From Eubacteriales bacterium (lineage in GTDB: Bacteria > Bacillota > Clostridia > Peptostreptococcales > Anaerovoracaceae), in assembly GCA_028692105.1 (NCBI GenBank), contig JAQUYC010000001.1:1-64000 (forward strand): a stretch of DNA of 64,000 nucleotides, written 5' to 3'. Below, one piece after another: positions 12,935 to 23,466 of the stretch. Numbering within the stretch: position 1 is the stretch's first letter; each line of letters opens with the position of its first letter. Under the pieces are notes generated by a model. The model saw only the letters and a list, made by a program, of their open reading frames with translations, was not told where the DNA came from and did no database searches. Position numbers and translations under genes: made by a program.

Positions 12935-14596
12935 TCAATCCTCAAGAACAGCTCCCGTATTTGCTGATGTGACCAGTTTAGCATAACGTGCAAGGTATCC
13001 AGACTTGACCTTTGGCTCCGGTTTAATATAATCTGATCTTCTTGCTGCGATCTCCTCGTCAGAAAGTGAAACAGAGAGCTTTCTACCCGGAATATCTATA
13101 TTAATTATATCGCCGTTTTTCAGCAGCCCAATCAGCCCGCCGCTCATTGCCTCCGGAGATACATGTCCGATTGAAGCTCCTCTTGAAGCACCCGAAAATC
13201 TGCCGTCAGTGATGAGAGCAACGTCTTTATCCAGACCCATCCCCGCAATAGACGAAGTTGGTGAGAGCATTTCCCTCATTCCCGGTCCGCCCTTCGGTCC
13301 TTCATATCGAATGACTATTACATCACCCTTCTTTATCTGTTTTGCCCAGATTGCTTCAGATGCCTCCTCTTCGGAATTAAATACGACAGCCGGTCCGGAA
13401 TGCACGAGCATTTCTTCTGCAACTGCAGATTCCTTGACAACAGCTCCGTCTTCTGCCAGATTGCCTCTCAGTATAGCAAGTCCTCCGCGATTTCTATACG
13501 GTTTGTCGATCGGCATAATAACGCTATAGTCTTTTACCGTCGTGTTTGAAATATTATCACCGACTCTCAGACCGGTTACGGTCATGCAATCCTTGTTAAC
13601 AAGACCTTTTTTAGATAGTTCGTTCATCAATGCCGGAACTCCCCCTGCTCTGTGGAGATCCTCTATATGGTGATGCCCGCTTGGGCTGAGTTTTGCGATG
13701 TACGGTGTCTTTTCACTGATCTTATCGAATATCCTCAGGTCCAGTTTGATACCCGCCTCATGCGCAATTGCCGGTAAATGAAGGACCGTATTTGTCGATC
13801 CGGCCATAGCCATATCCACCGTTATTGCATTCCCGAACGCATTCTCAGTAAGAATATCCCGCGGCCTGATATTCCTCTTTACCATTTCCATTACTTTTAC
13901 GCCGGCCATCTTTGCAAGACGGATTCTTTCGCCGCTATCGGCTAAAGCCGTGCCGTTGTATGGAAGTCCCAATCCCAGCACTTCTGTAAGACAGTTCATG
14001 CTGTTTGCGGTGAAAAGACCGGAACAGGAACCGCAGCCGGGGCAGGCATTCAAGGCGACCTCTTCCAGTTCATCCTCTGTACAGGTGCCGTTTTTGAATG
14101 CTCCGATTTTTTCCATCACGCTATTAAAATCAAGCACCGTTCCTTCTGAGTAACCGGCTCTCATAGCTCCTCCGCTGACAACTACAGCTGGTATATTTAA
14201 ACGGGCAGCAGCCATAAGCATGCCGGGAACTATTTTATCACAATTCGGGACCAGCACAAGACCGTCAAAAGCATGACCTTTTGCCATCGCTTCGATGGAA
14301 TCTGCTACAAGCTCTCTGCTGGCAAGAGGATATTTCATTCCGTCATGTCCCATTGCAATGCCGTCACATATACCGATAGAAGGAAATTCCACCGGTGTTC
14401 CCCCTGCTAAAGAGACACCCTTTTTTGCGGCTTCTGCAATACGGTCGAGCAGCATATGACCGGGAACTATCTCATTTTGAGAGTTTACTATTCCGATAAG
14501 CGGGCGATCTATCTCTTCTCGAATATAGCCCATACCGTATAAAAGTGTTCGTACTGACGCACCGGAAGGGCCATTCTTAATCTTATCACTGTTCAT
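12935..14596 (-). CDS. ilvD: Dihydroxy-acid dehydratase
   Basis: [51 protein letters not shown]. Confidence 0.97.
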
Positions 14597-14803: not shown

Positions 14804-15865
14804 CTATTTCTCATAAATATGATTGAATATATTTTCAGCAAAACCCTTTGCTCTCATCTCAATCTCATTAAGTTTCAAGATGCTTCCTGAACTATTTGCT
14901 GTTTCCATTATTGCAAAACGGCTTGGCAGGATGAAGGTCTTATTCATATTAAGCCCGCTGATCAGCTGCTGAGCCACAATATCTCCTCCGCTGTAACCGG
15001 AAACGATAATGCCGAATAAATATTTATCATAGAACTTCGTCATTTTAAGCAATGCGGTGAGGCGATTGATCATGGCGGCAAGGTTGGCGCTGATTGCATC
15101 ATTATAGTTCGGACAGATCATTATTAGTGCATCGCAGTTGATTAATGCAGGATATACCTGATCTACGATGACTCCTCCGTAAATGCAGCCTGCTGAGTCA
15201 CCAAAATGCAGACAGGTTGTATATGGACACCCGATGCAATCCATTACGGTTCCGTTTCTTAAGGAAATTTCAGTAAGCTCACAATTATTCAGATGTCCTT
15301 TGACAAGATTCCAGAGTTCCAATGTATTTGACTTCTTAAAATGGCTGGCATGCAAAGCTAAAATCTTGGGATTTTTCTTTTTTGGCGGGTTAAAATTCAT
15401 TATTTGTTCGACCAAAGCTCTCCCCGAGTGAATATATGCCCCGAAGGTGTCTACATCCAATATTTTTGCCACAGTATTATAATTGTCCAGAGATTTTGTC
15501 CCCTCCACCAAGGGCTTTCCGGGGAAAGTGCATCCTGAAAGGTTGGCACTGAAGGCCAGCTCTCTCCCGACGGATTTTGTAAAAAGCTCACTGTTTCCGT
15601 CAATGATGATCCCTCCGACACTTCCTTCAAAACAATTCGGGTTCAGTCTGATCCTTTTTAGGATCCCATAAAGTTCTATATTGATTCCGGATTCACCCAA
15701 AGAAATCGCAAAGAGTATTCTTTTATTCCGAAAGTGAAAAAACTCATCAGCTGTAGTAACCGTTTCATAGGAATATCCCTCGAGGCTACTTTCCAATATT
15801 TTGTTGAGCCGTTTCGTTTTGATCTGTTCTCTGCAGTGCGGTCTTATAACTATAATGTCAAACAT
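14804..15865 (-). CDS. Flavodoxin/NADPH-dependent FMN reductase-like protein with extra N-terminal domain
   Basis: C-terminal half: KILALHASHFKKSNTLELWNLVKGHL..., CIGCPYTTCLHFGDSAGCIYGG, PNYNDAISANLAAMINR; the N-terminal ~165 aa are not recognised. Confidence 0.65.
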   Translation of the reverse strand: MFDIIVIRPHCREQIKTKRLNKILESSLEGYSYETVTTADEFFHFRNKRILFAISLGESGINIELYGILKRIRLNPNCFEGSVGGIIIDGNSELFTKSVGRELAFSANLSGCTFPGKPLVEGTKSLDNYNTVAKILDVDTFGAYIHSGRALVEQIMNFNPPKKKNPKILALHASHFKKSNTLELWNLVKGHLNNCELTEISLRNGTVMDCIGCPYTTCLHFGDSAGCIYGGVIVDQVYPALINCDALIMICPNYNDAISANLAAMINRLTALLKMTKFYDKYLFGIIVSGYSGGDIVAQQLISGLNMNKTFILPSRFAIMETANSSGSILKLNEIEMRAKGFAENIFNHIYEK

Positions 15866-15910
15866 GTTTTACCCCCCGTTTTTGGTCCCCAATTCAACTC
15901 CCCCAATTTA

Positions 15911-16924
15911 TCAGACAATCCGTTCCAGTTCCTTATATGCGTATTCAATTCTACGGAATAAGGCCTCCGGCAGAGAAATAGATTCAAGCTCCACACCTGA
16001 TGCTGTCATTCTGTTTCTGGCACCTAAAAACACTCCTCCAAGATAGGTCGAACTGTAATGCCATTCCCCTCTCAATGTCAGCAGCAGTGATATTACACCG
16101 GAAGAAAGTGCAGGAGCTATATATGGTTTATAACCTATTTCCCTTGTTCTTATATTTGCCTTAACCGTCAGATCTGTAAGTTCTTTTGACAGTTTATCAT
16201 CGTAATGCTCAATGCTGTTGGCGATCACTAAATCATTGCCATGCGGTCCAAACGCCCGGCCTTCGGTAAGAAATGACCGAAACCTGTCATCTCTTTTTGC
16301 ATAATAAGCAGCTCGGCTGTTCATGACACCAAGACCGTAGCCTTGAATCTGGACTGGCTTTAATCCATTTCCGTCGATTATACCCGCCTCATTCCTGTTA
16401 CTCTCTAAATAAGCGGCTCTACATAAGGGATCTACAGGATCAGATACCACGGCAAAAAGACCGCCGAACCGCAGTGTCCTTGCTAATACAGCATATTCCT
16501 TTATGATCTCCCTATTCGCTTCGTATTGAATCATTCTCACATCTTTAACATCTGACCCTACGGAAGGTACTGATTTTGATGCACAAAAAATAAATAGATC
16601 ACAGTTAAAAATTTCATCTTTTTCCAGGATTACGACCTCCGGAAGCCGATCATAATCCCAAGGATACGCCGTCTGATTCATTTCATATTCATAGCGCTGT
16701 TCTGCATATCCGTTGCTGAATATACCTATGCGGGATATTACATCTCCTCCCATAAGCTTTAAACCGATTAAAAGAGTTCCTCCTACATCCCCCAGCCCTA
16801 TTATATTGACCTTTTTCTTTCCATTCAGTGAGAATGGGGAGTTCGTATTGCACGTCACGGTCTTCTCTTGTTTATCATCTATAAGATCATCCAGAAAATA
16901 TATCTTCTTATTCTCTTTTTCCAT
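15911..16924 (-). CDS. Rossmann-fold lactate/malate dehydrogenase-like protein
   Basis: VNIIGLGDVGGTLLIGLKLMGGDVISRIGIFS dinucleotide-binding motif; VVSDPVDPLCRAAYL, GPHGNDLVIANS. Confidence 0.6.
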   Translation of the reverse strand: MEKENKKIYFLDDLIDDKQEKTVTCNTNSPFSLNGKKKVNIIGLGDVGGTLLIGLKLMGGDVISRIGIFSNGYAEQRYEYEMNQTAYPWDYDRLPEVVILEKDEIFNCDLFIFCASKSVPSVGSDVKDVRMIQYEANREIIKEYAVLARTLRFGGLFAVVSDPVDPLCRAAYLESNRNEAGIIDGNGLKPVQIQGYGLGVMNSRAAYYAKRDDRFRSFLTEGRAFGPHGNDLVIANSIEHYDDKLSKELTDLTVKANIRTREIGYKPYIAPALSSGVISLLLTLRGEWHYSSTYLGGVFLGARNRMTASGVELESISLPEALFRRIEYAYKELERIV

Positions 16925-16964
16925 CTGAAAATGTTTCCCTTCATTCCTGATTGCTTAATATTAC

Positions 16965-19900
16965 TTATATTATTATGTTTTCAAGACGTTTTAGTATTTC
17001 AATGTCGCCTGCAATATATTCGGAAGGTGCCATATTGATATCATAACTCATATCGCCTCCTTTATCCGGATACCTGTTTGACAGAATTGCTTCAGCTTGC
17101 CTGTTTAAAGTCAGTTTTCTTTCATATACGATTTGATATTCTTCTTCAATGGTTCTAAGAATGTTCTTTGCATTTACCAGACAGGTCATAGAAAAATCAT
17201 ATAATGCTGCCTTAGGTGTATCCATTAAAAAGTTTGGCGCAACATAAGGAAGAATAAGATTTATGGATGGAAGAAATCCTGCGCCTTGGCGCACGTCCCT
17301 CAAAACGCTGTCTCCCCCGATAAAGGGATACATGTTGGATTCTACGAACCATGATCGCAAATTTGGAATAAAATAAACGCTTTCAACCTCTCGGCCTTGT
17401 AGTGTCATCAAATCCTTTCCCCTGCCGGAAAGTAATCCAACGATAATTTTGCTCACCTGTAAGTTCTCCTGCCTGAACAGGGGGTCAAGCTTCTTAAGCC
17501 GGTATCCTTTATGAAGCAGGTCATCTACAAGAAACACAGGCCTTTGGAAGGATTTTATTGTCCTGATCTGATAGACCAACGGAGAGTAATTGGGAAATTC
17601 AGTAATCTGAAACAGTGTAATTGAAGGTTCAAACCGTTTATCGGTATGAAGTGACTTGGTGACAGTATTCGGAACAACCATACCGCTCAGAATTTTTCCG
17701 AATGGAACACACATATATTCTCCTAATTGTCTGACTGCAAGGGGTTCTTTGGGGACATTGTTGCTTTTGGTTATCAAATCTACGATTCTATGATGCATAA
17801 CTTTTGAATCAAATGATAAAATCAGATTTCCCGGGTAAAGCTTTGTTAAAGAGTACTGCATTCTCCTGTGCGCTTCTTCTATTGCATTCAGAACTCTCAC
17901 TCTCCCGTTGAATGGTTCCTTCACGATCGTGCCTATATCCTTATGCAAAGTAACGGGGTATTTCATATCAACGGCATATATATGATCTTCGGCTCCATTC
18001 ACTTTAAGCATCTGAAAGCCCTGTCTCTTTAATAAAGAAGAAAGCCTTGCATCTATTTCTCCGATATGGCGGTGATAGATGGCAAAGGTAAAACCGTTCT
18101 CCAGGCAATATGCAAGAGCTTCTGTCAATACGAGCTGATCTGTATTATTTATTGATGCAGTATTTGAATAGGCTATGCCGCCCAAAACAACTATCTTGCC
18201 TGACGTTATCCCCCGTATATGCGAAGCAAGATTGATGCTGCCGAATTCTTCAAACAGTTCCGACATATTAACTTCATGGAAAGTAGCAATCGCAACCGGG
18301 ATGTCATTACTGCCGCCGTCTCTTATCAATATGGCATTTACGCTATTTCTTGCAAGATAAGATTTTATGTTCTCCCTAATATTTTGCTCCTGCAGCAGCA
18401 ATGTTTTGGTCAGTTCATCGATCAGCTGCCCGTTAAATTTCTTAATGATTTCAAACCTTATCTGACGTGTACTGAATACGTGTTTATATTGCGGCTCTCT
18501 TAAATAAAGGCCGTTATCATAGATATAGCGTTCAGCTAATGGTTCAATCAGGTTTGAGATGTCACGGTTATAATCTATGTTGTCTCTGATCTGTGTTGAG
18601 CTTATTTCTTTAAGATATGGCGGAAGCTTAAGTTCGATCAGCTTTCCGGTCAGAATCGAAGTATTATGACTTTCTATATTACTTTTTTGATTTTCTGCAT
18701 CCATGGTTCGTTTGAATATAATATGATGAAACCCATGGATGGAATGCTCCTGCGGAGGAGCTTTATAACTCGAAGCATTCTTAATAACATCGCTTCCCAC
18801 GACTATATAAATTTCCCTGCCCGGAAACAGTTCTTTCAGTTTTCTCAGATCTTCCGGGTTTGAAAGGTTGATCGGGATGTCATCAGGGAAAAGATAAACA
18901 TCCTTTTCATCCGCTTCCGACATACTGATTATTTTCCTGCGAATTAGCTTAGGCTGTGTTTTTTTCGACCAGGAAAACTCATCGATAGCTAAATACACCT
19001 CATAACCCAGGTCTCTGATTTCCTTAACGATACCCTTATGACCCAGTGAAAACGGATCAAATGTTCCGGGAAAAAAGGCAATTTTATCAATTATCGGGAT
19101 GCAGATCTTTTTATTCAGGAAAAGGTAATCGGATAAAAATCTATAAATATGATTGAGAGAAGCTGCAGCGTTGAAGAAAGACAGAGCAGTTTCCTTTTGG
19201 TCTGTAATCAGAATAAGCATCTTTTTATACATTTCTTTAAAAAAAGAATATTTATCTTCCAATGTTAATTTTGAGGAGCCAAAGAGAAATTGACCTATCA
19301 CTAAAAAGGCTTCCTGACTGATCATATAGTTATAATTTGATAAACCCTTAAGGATTAAGCCTATGATTTCATCTCTACGCTTGATATAAACGTCTTCACT
19401 TTCATGAAACCGGTCTTTGTATTGAGAATAATTCTGCAGCATAATACCAAGCGTATTAAGCGTAACTGACCCTATACGCTCATTCGTGCTGTTCAGAAGC
19501 CTTCTGAAATCGTTCATCAATTCGTCCAGTTCATTGGGGTGCAGATGCAATGCCAATACCCCCAAATAGTCAGGAAGATATTTTGAAAACTCGTATTGCC
19601 CTATTTCCAAGCCTTTACTAAGTTCCACAGCTATTTCATTCCTCTCCGGAGGAGTCAGCTTGGGAATAATGGAAAGCAGCGCTTGACCTGCTGTGTGCCG
19701 TACTATTACTCGATCACTTACCTTGATCAAATTTGAAAAGTGTGCCGCAACTTGAAGCAGCTGTTTATTTTCCCCCAAGAGTATCTGATTCAGTAAAAGC
19801 TCTATATTTACAACCTTTATTACCCATGGTGTTGCAGCTTTTAAGTTTTCCAGGAATATTTCTGATATGGCATTTGCATCCTGATAAATTGTATACGCTA

Positions 19901-21827
19901 AATTTCTTTCATCTTTCACAGGAAGCTTAAGATCCCTGAATATTTCATTTTTTAAATATCTTATGCTCAACACATCATCTTGACTGGAATATTTCAAACA
20001 TGAGTTGAATAAGGCTAAAGCTTCCTTTTTGTGATTATCACTTTCGGAAAGATACTTTATGAAACGATGCACGGCAATTTGAATTTCCAGCGAGTCTCTG
20101 GAAGCCGTTCTGGTCGTAAAATCCATGAGTACATGAATATCTTCATCGGTGCACAGTGGCAAAGGCAAGTCAAGTGTTGAGTCCAACAGGATAAATGCAG
20201 TTGAATCAATCACTTCGGTATTTTCATAAAACCGAAGAAATGATTTCAAATAATTTTCACGGTCCTCTTTTTTGCATCTTTTTAGTGTGGCTCTCAGAAC
20301 AAACTTCAGAGTATAACCCAGCCATCTCTTATGCTGGTCTGTTATCTTATGATCCGGGAAAATGATAGCTTCAAGATATTTCTCCCACAGTCTGATACTT
20401 GTTATTTCATCCTGCTCTCTTATAGCACCTTCCGGCAGCTCCTTTCGATATTCCTCATCATAATGTACTATGATGTTTCCTATCAATTGTGCACTCTGCC
20501 TTCGAATATCTCCTTCTCTATGCATCAGAAGTTCATATAGAAAGTTCAATGTCATCATCTTCTGCTTTTGTGTCATGTAAGTAAAATATTCTGCAAAGAT
20601 GTTCATATAAGCTCTGATATTTTTCCAGTTGCTTTCACTTCTTGCCGCCTCCAAAACATCACCAAAAGCAGTTTCACTGTTAAACTTGTTCATGACGTCA
20701 ATATTGTGCCGTATCGCAAGGTTTTTAAGACTTCTGACTGCTTCATCCGAAGTATATAATGCCGGATCTTTGCTTTCCCGATTCCTAAGATCCCGTGTGG
20801 TCAAATCCGTATTGACTCCGAGGTCTATCATAAAATCTTCAAAGTCCTTCAGTTTATTATAAACCTTAATGTACCTGTCTCGTTTTGCATTATCCACATT
20901 GTCAAGCTTGTTGAGTATAACATCAAAAGAATCCTTAAGATCATAATATTTAACGATTTCTCGGCCTTGTCGGTCATTTATGCTTTTAACCCTGAAATCT
21001 GAGTATATTAAAACAAGAGATTCTGCTGACAGGTTTTCAAGTTCCAAATCCCATGTTGAATGATTCGAGGCTATATGTCCAATAGTCGGCATACCATTTT
21101 TTTTAAAATATTTATCTGTGTAATAATAATGCAGATAAGGGATTCGCTCGGCTTCTTCCGGCTTACAGCCATACTTCCCTATATCGTGCCCTATCGCAGC
21201 GCCGGAAACAAGCGCAAGGTCAATAGGAACACCTGCTTGAAACAGCTGTCTTCCTATATGCAATGAAATATAATGGACACCGCTCACATGAGACAAGGTC
21301 TTGTATCTCGTGATTTCCTGGCCTATTCTCATAAATTCATAGATATAACTTTCTCGGAAAAGTCGGATAAGATGTCTGTATTCTTCAGCTGATTCAAAAT
21401 TATTTGTCTCTTGTTCCGAAAGCATCTCAATATGAATGCCGGGGTCAAACGTCTTGTGTTCTGATTCATAGTGCAAAAATGTTCTCAGAACCTCCAGATA
21501 AAATAGTCCGCCCCTCTCACTTGCGGATGTAGTTATGTCGGTGATATTTTCCGGGAATATACGGTTAAGAACGTAATCATAGGTATATGACAGCCAGCCA
21601 TTTTCAGGTTTTTCGGAGATAGAATTCATTATTGACTCGCAAACTTTCAATACGTCTATACAGCTAACCGTGTCTTGCTCAATGATGAGGCTGATTCTTT
21701 CTATCCAATCATCTTTTTTAATAAGAAGAAGCATCTTCCTTTTAGACAGCCTGATTGTTCTTAAAAAATCCTTTTCTGTCAGATTGCTTACAAGTTCTCT
21801 ATACGCCTGCTCAATTCTCTTCGGCAT
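16965..21827 (-). CDS. Giant multidomain protein: HD domain, repeat region, NadD-type nucleotidyltransferase, acyltransferase-like and phosphoribosyltransferase-like regions
   Basis: ORF given to 21851, but RBS GGAGGT precedes ATG at 21827. Motifs: AAIGHDIGKYG (~residue 218), FFPGTFDPFSLGHKGI (~930), VFLVDDLLHKGYRLKKLDP PRPP-loop-like (~1440). Confidence 0.75.
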   Translation of the reverse strand: MPKRIEQAYRELVSNLTEKDFLRTIRLSKRKMLLLIKKDDWIERISLIIEQDTVSCIDVLKVCESIMNSISEKPENGWLSYTYDYVLNRIFPENITDITTSASERGGLFYLEVLRTFLHYESEHKTFDPGIHIEMLSEQETNNFESAEEYRHLIRLFRESYIYEFMRIGQEITRYKTLSHVSGVHYISLHIGRQLFQAGVPIDLALVSGAAIGHDIGKYGCKPEEAERIPYLHYYYTDKYFKKNGMPTIGHIASNHSTWDLELENLSAESLVLIYSDFRVKSINDRQGREIVKYYDLKDSFDVILNKLDNVDNAKRDRYIKVYNKLKDFEDFMIDLGVNTDLTTRDLRNRESKDPALYTSDEAVRSLKNLAIRHNIDVMNKFNSETAFGDVLEAARSESNWKNIRAYMNIFAEYFTYMTQKQKMMTLNFLYELLMHREGDIRRQSAQLIGNIIVHYDEEYRKELPEGAIREQDEITSIRLWEKYLEAIIFPDHKITDQHKRWLGYTLKFVLRATLKRCKKEDRENYLKSFLRFYENTEVIDSTAFILLDSTLDLPLPLCTDEDIHVLMDFTTRTASRDSLEIQIAVHRFIKYLSESDNHKKEALALFNSCLKYSSQDDVLSIRYLKNEIFRDLKLPVKDERNLAYTIYQDANAISEIFLENLKAATPWVIKVVNIELLLNQILLGENKQLLQVAAHFSNLIKVSDRVIVRHTAGQALLSIIPKLTPPERNEIAVELSKGLEIGQYEFSKYLPDYLGVLALHLHPNELDELMNDFRRLLNSTNERIGSVTLNTLGIMLQNYSQYKDRFHESEDVYIKRRDEIIGLILKGLSNYNYMISQEAFLVIGQFLFGSSKLTLEDKYSFFKEMYKKMLILITDQKETALSFFNAAASLNHIYRFLSDYLFLNKKICIPIIDKIAFFPGTFDPFSLGHKGIVKEIRDLGYEVYLAIDEFSWSKKTQPKLIRRKIISMSEADEKDVYLFPDDIPINLSNPEDLRKLKELFPGREIYIVVGSDVIKNASSYKAPPQEHSIHGFHHIIFKRTMDAENQKSNIESHNTSILTGKLIELKLPPYLKEISSTQIRDNIDYNRDISNLIEPLAERYIYDNGLYLREPQYKHVFSTRQIRFEIIKKFNGQLIDELTKTLLLQEQNIRENIKSYLARNSVNAILIRDGGSNDIPVAIATFHEVNMSELFEEFGSINLASHIRGITSGKIVVLGGIAYSNTASINNTDQLVLTEALAYCLENGFTFAIYHRHIGEIDARLSSLLKRQGFQMLKVNGAEDHIYAVDMKYPVTLHKDIGTIVKEPFNGRVRVLNAIEEAHRRMQYSLTKLYPGNLILSFDSKVMHHRIVDLITKSNNVPKEPLAVRQLGEYMCVPFGKILSGMVVPNTVTKSLHTDKRFEPSITLFQITEFPNYSPLVYQIRTIKSFQRPVFLVDDLLHKGYRLKKLDPLFRQENLQVSKIIVGLLSGRGKDLMTLQGREVESVYFIPNLRSWFVESNMYPFIGGDSVLRDVRQGAGFLPSINLILPYVAPNFLMDTPKAALYDFSMTCLVNAKNILRTIEEEYQIVYERKLTLNRQAEAILSNRYPDKGGDMSYDINMAPSEYIAGDIEILKRLENIII

Positions 21828-22122: not shown

Positions 22123-23466
22123 ATGTCAAGTATCGTACAGCAATACATCGATATTGCAAAAAAAAGAAACCCTGGCGAATCAGAATTTCACCAGACCGTA
22201 GAAGAGGTTCTACATTCTATCGAACCGGTTCTGGAAAAACATCCTGAATATATCAAAGCAGGCCTTATCGAAAGATTAATTGAGCCGGAAAGAGCAATTA
22301 TCTTCAGAGTTACTTGGGTTGATGATGCCGGTAAAGTACAGGTTAACAGAGGTTACAGGTATCAATTTAACAGTGCGATTGGGCCTTATAAAGGTGGTAC
22401 ACGATTTGCACCAAATGTAAATCCCAGTATTATTAAGTTCTTAGGATTTGAGCAGATTTTCAAAAATGCTTTAACCGGACTTCCTATTGGTGGAGGAAAA
22501 GGCGGAGCGGATTTTGATCCAAATGGTAAATCTGACGGCGAAATCATGAGATTCTGTCAAGCTTACATGACTGAATTATATAGACATATCGGCCCGCAAA
22601 CAGATAGCCCTGCTGGCGACCTTGGTGTTGGAGCAAGAGAAATTGGTTATCTATTTGGTCAATATAAGAGAATCGCTAATATGTATAACGAATCAGTTAC
22701 AGGAAAAGCGGTTGTTTATGGCGGACTGAACGGAAGAACAGAAGCTACAGGTTACGGTATCGTATACTTTGCAAATTGCATGTTAGAGGCAAATAACGAA
22801 AAAATGGCTGGCAAGAAAGTCGTTGTTTCAGGTTTTGGAAATGTAACATGGGGTACTGTAACAAAGCTGGATGAGCTTGGAGCTAAGGTTATTGCATTCT
22901 CAGGTCCTGACGGATATATCTTAGACGAAGCCGGTGTTACAGGTGAAAAGATTGCTGCTCTTCTTGAACTAAGAAATAGCGGTAAAAACATCTGCGCACC
23001 TTATGCAGAAAAATACCCTGAAGCTAAATTCTTCGCAGGAAAGAAGCCTTGGGAAGTTAAGGCTGATTTATATATCCCTTGCGCAATGCAGAACGACATT
23101 CACTTAGAAGATGCCAAAAAAATCGTAGCGAATGGTGCTAAATTCCTTTGCGAAGGTGCTAACATGCCTTGCACAAACGAAGCCATTGATTATTTAATGA
23201 GCAATGGAATAATTTTCGGGCCTTGTAAAGCTGCTAATGCTGGCGGTGTTGCTTGTTCATGTATTGAAATGGGTCAGAATGCAGGACACACTGTATTTTC
23301 ACTTGATCAGGTGTATGCACAGTTAAAAAACATTATGGTTAGTATACATGATAGTTCTGCTGCTGCTGCTGCAGAATATGGTCTTGGATACAATCTGCTT
23401 GCCGGTGCTAACATTGCCGGATTTAAGAAGATTGCAGAAGCTATGATGGCTCAAGGTATTGTATAA
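22123..23466 (+). CDS. gdhA: NADP-type glutamate dehydrogenase
   Basis: GPYKGGTRFAPNVN, GLPIGGGKGGADFDPNGKSDGE, GPQTDSPAGDLGVGAREIGYLFGQYK. Confidence 0.97.
   Translation: MSSIVQQYIDIAKKRNPGESEFHQTVEEVLHSIEPVLEKHPEYIKAGLIERLIEPERAIIFRVTWVDDAGKVQVNRGYRYQFNSAIGPYKGGTRFAPNVNPSIIKFLGFEQIFKNALTGLPIGGGKGGADFDPNGKSDGEIMRFCQAYMTELYRHIGPQTDSPAGDLGVGAREIGYLFGQYKRIANMYNESVTGKAVVYGGLNGRTEATGYGIVYFANCMLEANNEKMAGKKVVVSGFGNVTWGTVTKLDELGAKVIAFSGPDGYILDEAGVTGEKIAALLELRNSGKNICAPYAEKYPEAKFFAGKKPWEVKADLYIPCAMQNDIHLEDAKKIVANGAKFLCEGANMPCTNEAIDYLMSNGIIFGPCKAANAGGVACSCIEMGQNAGHTVFSLDQVYAQLKNIMVSIHDSSAAAAAEYGLGYNLLAGANIAGFKKIAEAMMAQGIV

Follow-up and report, generated by a model that had tools for sequence, protein, structure and literature searches.

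A co-inherited three-gene module of Clostridia whose largest protein combines NadD-like nucleotidyltransferase and HD hydrolase-like domains

Introduction

The locus described here raises the question of what a giant multidomain protein does beside two apparent redox proteins, and whether the three belong together at all. The window, i.e. the whole stretch of DNA analysed, comprises 64,000 nucleotides (positions 1 to 64,000 of contig JAQUYC010000001.1, assembly GCA_028692105.1) of a Eubacteriales bacterium assigned to the Anaerovoracaceae. A sequence-only reading of this window had described three co-directional minus-strand genes with gaps of ~40 bp, and had suggested that a nucleotide-handling giant and two putative cofactor-binding redox proteins could form an undescribed cofactor or modification pathway. 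In this study, gene layout, co-inheritance, domain content and the surrounding NAD enzymes were examined in order to evaluate this suggestion.

Results

Gene layout and coding status

The three genes lie on the minus strand as had been described, and encode, in order of transcription, a giant fusion protein (16965..21827, 1620 aa), a protein of the lactate/malate dehydrogenase (LDH/MDH) superfamily (15911..16924, 337 aa) and an FMN_red flavoprotein (14804..15865, 353 aa). The LDH-like gene is separated from the giant by 40 bp and from the flavoprotein gene by 45 bp. The start of the giant was placed at the ATG at position 21827, which is preceded by GGAGG, the mechanical open reading frame beginning eight codons earlier. 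All three genes are coding and are under purifying selection, with dN/dS values of 0.06–0.11 against the two nearest homologues (78–81% identity), ratios that are rough because dS exceeds 1 in most comparisons. The cluster is flanked by a divergent gene at 22123–23466, presumably encoding glutamate dehydrogenase, and by a downstream gene on the same strand at 12935–14596, which we take to be ilvD, both names being given by sequence recognition. In a simple terminator scan, terminator-like sites in the region were no commoner than in shuffled sequence. No riboswitch or other RNA control element was found within the window, and seven homologous loci yielded only a tRNA and a purine riboswitch, located some kilobases away; control of the cluster by such elements was therefore rejected.

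Conservation and co-inheritance of the three genes

A scan of genome contigs with the LDH-like protein as query identified 36 loci, which belong to Clostridia and relatives. The flavoprotein gene lies directly downstream of the LDH-like gene in 35 of these (the remaining contig ends there), while in 28 the giant is encoded upstream in the same orientation, either whole or truncated where the contig stops. Co-occurrence was then assessed in genome sets composed of species representatives, partly metagenome-assembled, the class sample of which may share species with the 36-locus scan. The LDH-like family, defined by scores above 370 bits (ordinary LDH reaching at most about 50 bits), is present in 31 of 391 Clostridia genomes, and the C-terminal domain of the giant was detected in exactly the same 31; its HD end recovers this genome set too, except for two contig-cut genes and one weak match of 31 bits. 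At the class loci the flavoprotein gene adjoins the LDH-like gene and the giant is usually adjacent, in the same gene order. In some Oscillospiraceae the giant is not linked to the redox pair; in all eight genomes (8/8) with the redox pair but no giant on the stored locus, the giant was found elsewhere in the genome. Additionally, pairwise distances are correlated among the three proteins (r 0.90–0.91 over 18 loci, without a species-tree control). Clustering of the flanking open reading frames revealed no other recurrent neighbour, as only the three genes and their shadow frames recur; since the neighbouring genes are not conserved, the unit consists of these three genes. The conserved co-occurrence whose absence the sequence-only reading had named as grounds for abandoning its proposal was thus found, and it is well supported that the three genes constitute one self-contained, co-inherited and functionally linked module.

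The distribution of the module is patchy, with carriers in 22 of 223 genera, including Oscillibacter, Dysosmobacter, Anaerotignum, Hornefia and Sinanaerobacter (gut, rumen, digester and sediment Clostridia), and in three of eight sampled genomes of the window's own family. Beyond the Clostridia, the giant was detected in six further genomes of a phylum sample, in five of which, G706 being the exception, the LDH-like gene follows it within the fetched stretch.

Several individual loci depart from the common arrangement. A second copy of the giant stands alone in three genomes (L163:6827-11722, L165:6197-11113 and L166:5378-10093), in each case with a divergently oriented APH-family kinase gene (PF01636) as neighbour and with no LDH-like gene adjacent, so the giant can occur without an adjacent redox pair. 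In G022 (L162:7918-13236), an insertion of ~6 kb separates the LDH-like gene from the giant and includes, as judged by eye, ammonium-transporter-like and glutamate-synthase-like genes. At locus L008 the giant's last domain is read from an overlapping frame of its own, possibly because of a frameshift. Furthermore, a full three-gene module is present on NZ_CP154629.1 (L083), a 2.63 Mb record of Acetoanaerobium noterae that is labelled plasmid pTPELB2 and appears to be a chromosome entered under the wrong label.

Domain architecture of the giant protein

From its N- to its C-terminus, the giant is predicted to consist of an HD hydrolase-like domain, helical repeats, a NadD-like nucleotidyltransferase domain, a degenerate GNAT-like domain and a type I phosphoribosyltransferase (PRTase)-like domain. 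Residues were compared in a 23-member alignment, and profile-profile comparisons (hhalign) employed reference sets drawn from the same genomes, unrelated pairs scoring below 8%.

The HD domain (approximately aa 160–345; 20793..21350, minus strand) is matched by the Pfam HD model in 12 of 23 homologues, and H180, H214, D215, H233, H256 and D277 are invariant in all 23. These residues correspond to the H...HD...H...H...D ligand set of YqeK (PMC8177086). HD phosphatases additionally share an Arg at position −3 relative to the first His (PMC8177086), a position at which 21 of 23 giants carry Thr or Ser. The giant was not among the matches to the YqeK model TIGR00488 in 12 genomes and profile-profile comparison with YqeK remained below 5%, and the identification of this domain as YqeK itself was set aside for want of profile support. 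The best profile match is instead the C-terminal HD region of NF045665 (DVU_1551 family NTP transferase), found for 23/23 giants; however, the giant reaches only 27 of the 315 bits of the curated cut-off, and the match covers the C-terminal part of that model only. The HD domain is followed by a helical (HEAT-like) repeat region (approximately aa 346–905; 19113..20792, minus strand), for which Pfam HEAT was matched in eight of 23 homologues (best E 9e-5).

The nucleotidyltransferase domain (aa 917–1118; 18474..19079, minus strand) is recognised by PF01467 (CTP_transf_like) in all 23 homologues and aligns with NadD over the whole domain (hhalign 99.2% over 183 columns). It carries the motifs PGTFDPF(S/T)L(G/S)HK and ISSTxIR, with S1076, S1077, I1080 and R1081 invariant. 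The HxGH motif is not preserved, since its first position is Ser in 14, Thr in eight and Ala in one of the 23 giants, while the second His is invariant; CoaD likewise has Thr at the first position. Against the NadD model TIGR00482 the window giant scores 51.7 bits and those of the carriers 35–60 bits, i.e. below the curated cut-off of 112.45.

The putative GNAT-like domain (aa 1115–1290; 17958..18485, minus strand) aligns with a GNAT set (hhalign 88%, 102 columns), and the acetyl-CoA motif R/QxxGxG/A of GNAT proteins (PF00583) is absent from the aligned columns. The C-terminal PRTase-like domain (aa 1285–1545; 17193..17975, minus strand) contains the motif V(I/F)LVDDLLHxGxR, in which the acidic pair D1435 and D1436 of the PRPP-like motif and R1443 are invariant and the Gly is kept. 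The profile-profile match is weak (hhalign 27%, over the PRPP motif only), and PF00156 (Pribosyltran) matches 4 of 23 homologues; a scan restricted to the last domain gives matches in 15 of 24, which are below threshold (best E 0.002). As HxGxR replaces the usual Thr-rich phosphate loop, this domain may not be catalytic.

The LDH-like dehydrogenase

The Rossmann protein with a GLGDVGG motif that had been noted from the sequence was confirmed to be LDH-like, with full-length homology to LDH (hhalign 98.6% over 274 columns; matches to LDH in PDB sequences at E 2e-7). The nucleotide-binding loop GDVG within this GxGxxG-type motif is invariant in 26 homologues, and the equivalents of Arg109, Arg171 and His195 are kept. 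In contrast to the LDH/MDH superfamily, Asp168 is Met throughout, Asn140 is Asp in most homologues and the Q/R102 specificity loop is replaced; the substitutions at 168 and 140 make ordinary LDH chemistry doubtful. The protein also differs from that superfamily in falling below the curated cut-offs and in its strict co-occurrence with the giant. At the end of the second strand most homologues have the Asp usual for NAD-type folds, with Ser or Asn in the window's group.

Most homologues (those of L012, L018, L022 and L027 among them) have an N-terminal extension of roughly 60–120 residues, which often begins MYYY or MYFY and contains a THPxxL..LD segment. The LDH-like protein of the window's clade lacks this extension, which accounts for the shorter gap to the giant in this clade.

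The flavoprotein

The flavodoxin/FMN-reductase features ascribed to the third protein, together with an unrecognised N-terminal domain, were likewise substantiated: the protein contains an FMN_red domain (E 4e-19), and its N-terminal domain (aa 1–162), which is conserved, gave no match in Pfam or PDB sequences. The possibility that the latter is a duplicated flavodoxin was set aside as unproven, the two halves showing no profile similarity. Four invariant cysteines (C210, C213, C218 and C227) probably hold an Fe-S cluster, and the pattern C.GC-x4-C-x7..9-C recurs in 66 of 67 flavoprotein rows (these rows including several loci from the same genome). The compact motif of the iron-sulfur flavoprotein Isf is CX2CX2CX5-7C (PMC3164229). 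The protein described here resembles Isf and FMN_red proteins in its FMN_red domain and in a compact four-cysteine cluster at a similar position, but it is spaced CX2CX4CX8C in the window and adds the ~160-aa N-terminal domain without known relatives.

NAD enzymes of the carriers and known systems

Separate NadD and separate YqeK proteins exceed the curated cut-offs in 12 of 12 carriers examined, and the nucleotidyltransferase of the giant is thus a paralogue beside the canonical NadD. NadC or PncB exceeds the cut-off in 23 of 27 carriers, the other four having a weaker NadC-like match; the window's genome has PncB only, with no NadC above the cut-off. These counts lend no support to the module being a substitute for missing NAD synthesis. 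The N-terminal model of PncB finds no match in 11 of 27 carriers, whereas all 27 non-carriers have one, a difference that is probably confounded by lineage, and several of the carriers concerned have a shorter NadC/PncB-like open reading frame instead.

None of the three proteins passes a curated NCBIfam cut-off in the scans, and among Pfam models only FMN_red and CTP_transf_like pass the threshold for the window proteins. No description of the domain combination or of the module was found in curated families, in the defence library or in open-licence papers. The nearest known system is NadD-YqeK (fused or side by side; JCVISYN3A_0380), which resembles the giant in joining a NadD-fold nucleotidyltransferase and an HD domain in one chain, in the six-ligand HD motif and in the SSTxIR motif. 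In NadD-YqeK fusions, the HD domain of YqeK acts as a hydrolase on the erroneous NaAD analogues that the NadD domain produces (PMC9426524). The giant differs in that its HD domain is N-terminal, some 570 residues away across the helical repeats, in its additional GNAT-like and PRTase-like domains and in the Ser or Thr at the first HxGH position; furthermore, it scores below the NadD cut-off and coexists with canonical NadD and YqeK.

Discussion

As the giant unites the domain kinds of NadD-YqeK with a PRTase-like domain, the reading we favour, tentatively and with rather less than even confidence, is that the module serves as an accessory route to an NAD-like dinucleotide, which its two redox enzymes form or use. 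Linkage and domain homology were observed directly; the catalytic activities, substrates and products named in what follows are all ones that we infer. The giant would be a one-polypeptide line in which a phosphoribosyl compound, either PRPP or a mononucleotide, is bound by the PRTase-like domain and the NadD-like domain joins a mononucleotide to AMP from ATP. Dinucleotide that is wrong or surplus may be hydrolysed by the HD domain, a task analogous to that of YqeK in NadD-YqeK fusions. Scaffolding or modification might fall to the helical repeats and the GNAT-like domain. The LDH-like dehydrogenase, with its NAD-type site, and the presumed Fe-S flavoprotein would either catalyse the redox step, acting on the base or a precursor, or make use of the product. 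Since the carriers also possess canonical NadD, YqeK and NaMN-forming enzymes, a special or repaired dinucleotide is a likelier product than bulk NAD.

This accessory-line reading is consistent with the identical presence sets, the adjacency of the flavoprotein gene, the recovery of every unlinked giant, the correlated distances and the lack of any other recurrent neighbour. It also draws on the NadD-like match, the six HD ligands, the PRPP-like acidic pair, the retained LDH residues and the four cysteines, and on the NadD-YqeK precedent (PMC9426524) along with the canonical NadD and YqeK of the carriers. Conversely, the weak PRTase assignment, the HD domain devoid of the phosphatase Arg, the GNAT-like domain devoid of the CoA motif and the stand-alone giants count against it. 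As for the cofactor or modification pathway first proposed, its linkage and outline domain assignments have therefore gained support, while the pathway itself is still one that we infer, with a nucleotidyltransferase that is a paralogue beside NadD.

Alternatively, the giant may start from an unusual precursor and make or remake ordinary NAD or NaAD, with the redox proteins repairing damaged pyridine nucleotides. Such a role in NAD supply, salvage or repair would fit the NadD-like and HD domains, the damage-control precedent of NadD-YqeK (PMC9426524) and the window's genome, which has only PncB and no NadC above the cut-off. It is nevertheless unlikely, if the first of the alternatives to be considered, given the canonical NadD and YqeK in every carrier examined and the NadC or PncB in most, and given the loss of the first His of HxGH in favour of Ser or Thr in 22 of 23 giants, so that the acceptor may differ.

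It is also conceivable, though again improbable, that the redox pair combines a catabolic 2-hydroxyacid dehydrogenase with an electron-transfer flavoprotein, and that the giant regulates or matures this pair by attaching a nucleotide to it, a group that the HD domain takes off again. The LDH fold with its catalytic His and both substrate Arg residues would suit the former role, and helical repeats suited to protein binding and the presence of HD and nucleotidyltransferase domains in one chain, a pairing as in GlnD, would suit the latter. However, the nucleotidyltransferase has the NadD/CoaD fold, whose members, to our knowledge, act on small molecules; the PRTase-like domain is left without explanation; and the Met at Asp168 and the predominance of Asp at Asn140 render ordinary LDH chemistry questionable.

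A further proposal, which we regard as doubtful, is that the module makes a new NAD-like cofactor, in which case the giant would attach a non-nicotinate base to phosphoribose, adenylate it and correct errors, and the redox proteins would form or use the new redox head group.

A defence or mobile-element conflict system might be envisaged from the patchy class distribution, the changing gene contexts and the multidomain nucleotide-handling protein, yet it is very improbable: none of the three proteins has a PADLOC match up to E 0.1 or a match in phages or viral contigs, the plasmid set yields a single record (a 2.6 Mb Acetoanaerobium replicon) and two redox partners would be atypical. A phage, plasmid or defence origin is thus without support from these searches. 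That the genes are chance neighbours with unrelated functions, as the unlinked redox pairs and giants of some Oscillospiraceae could be taken to imply, is refuted by the identical presence sets and by the three genes staying together across many families, and merits practically no credence.

The three genes are inherited as a unit in Clostridia, and one of the encoded proteins fuses domains of NAD-type synthesis and hydrolysis. The strict co-inheritance makes the cofactor idea directly testable, and should the module make or edit a nucleotide cofactor, the field of NAD biology would gain a further pathway.
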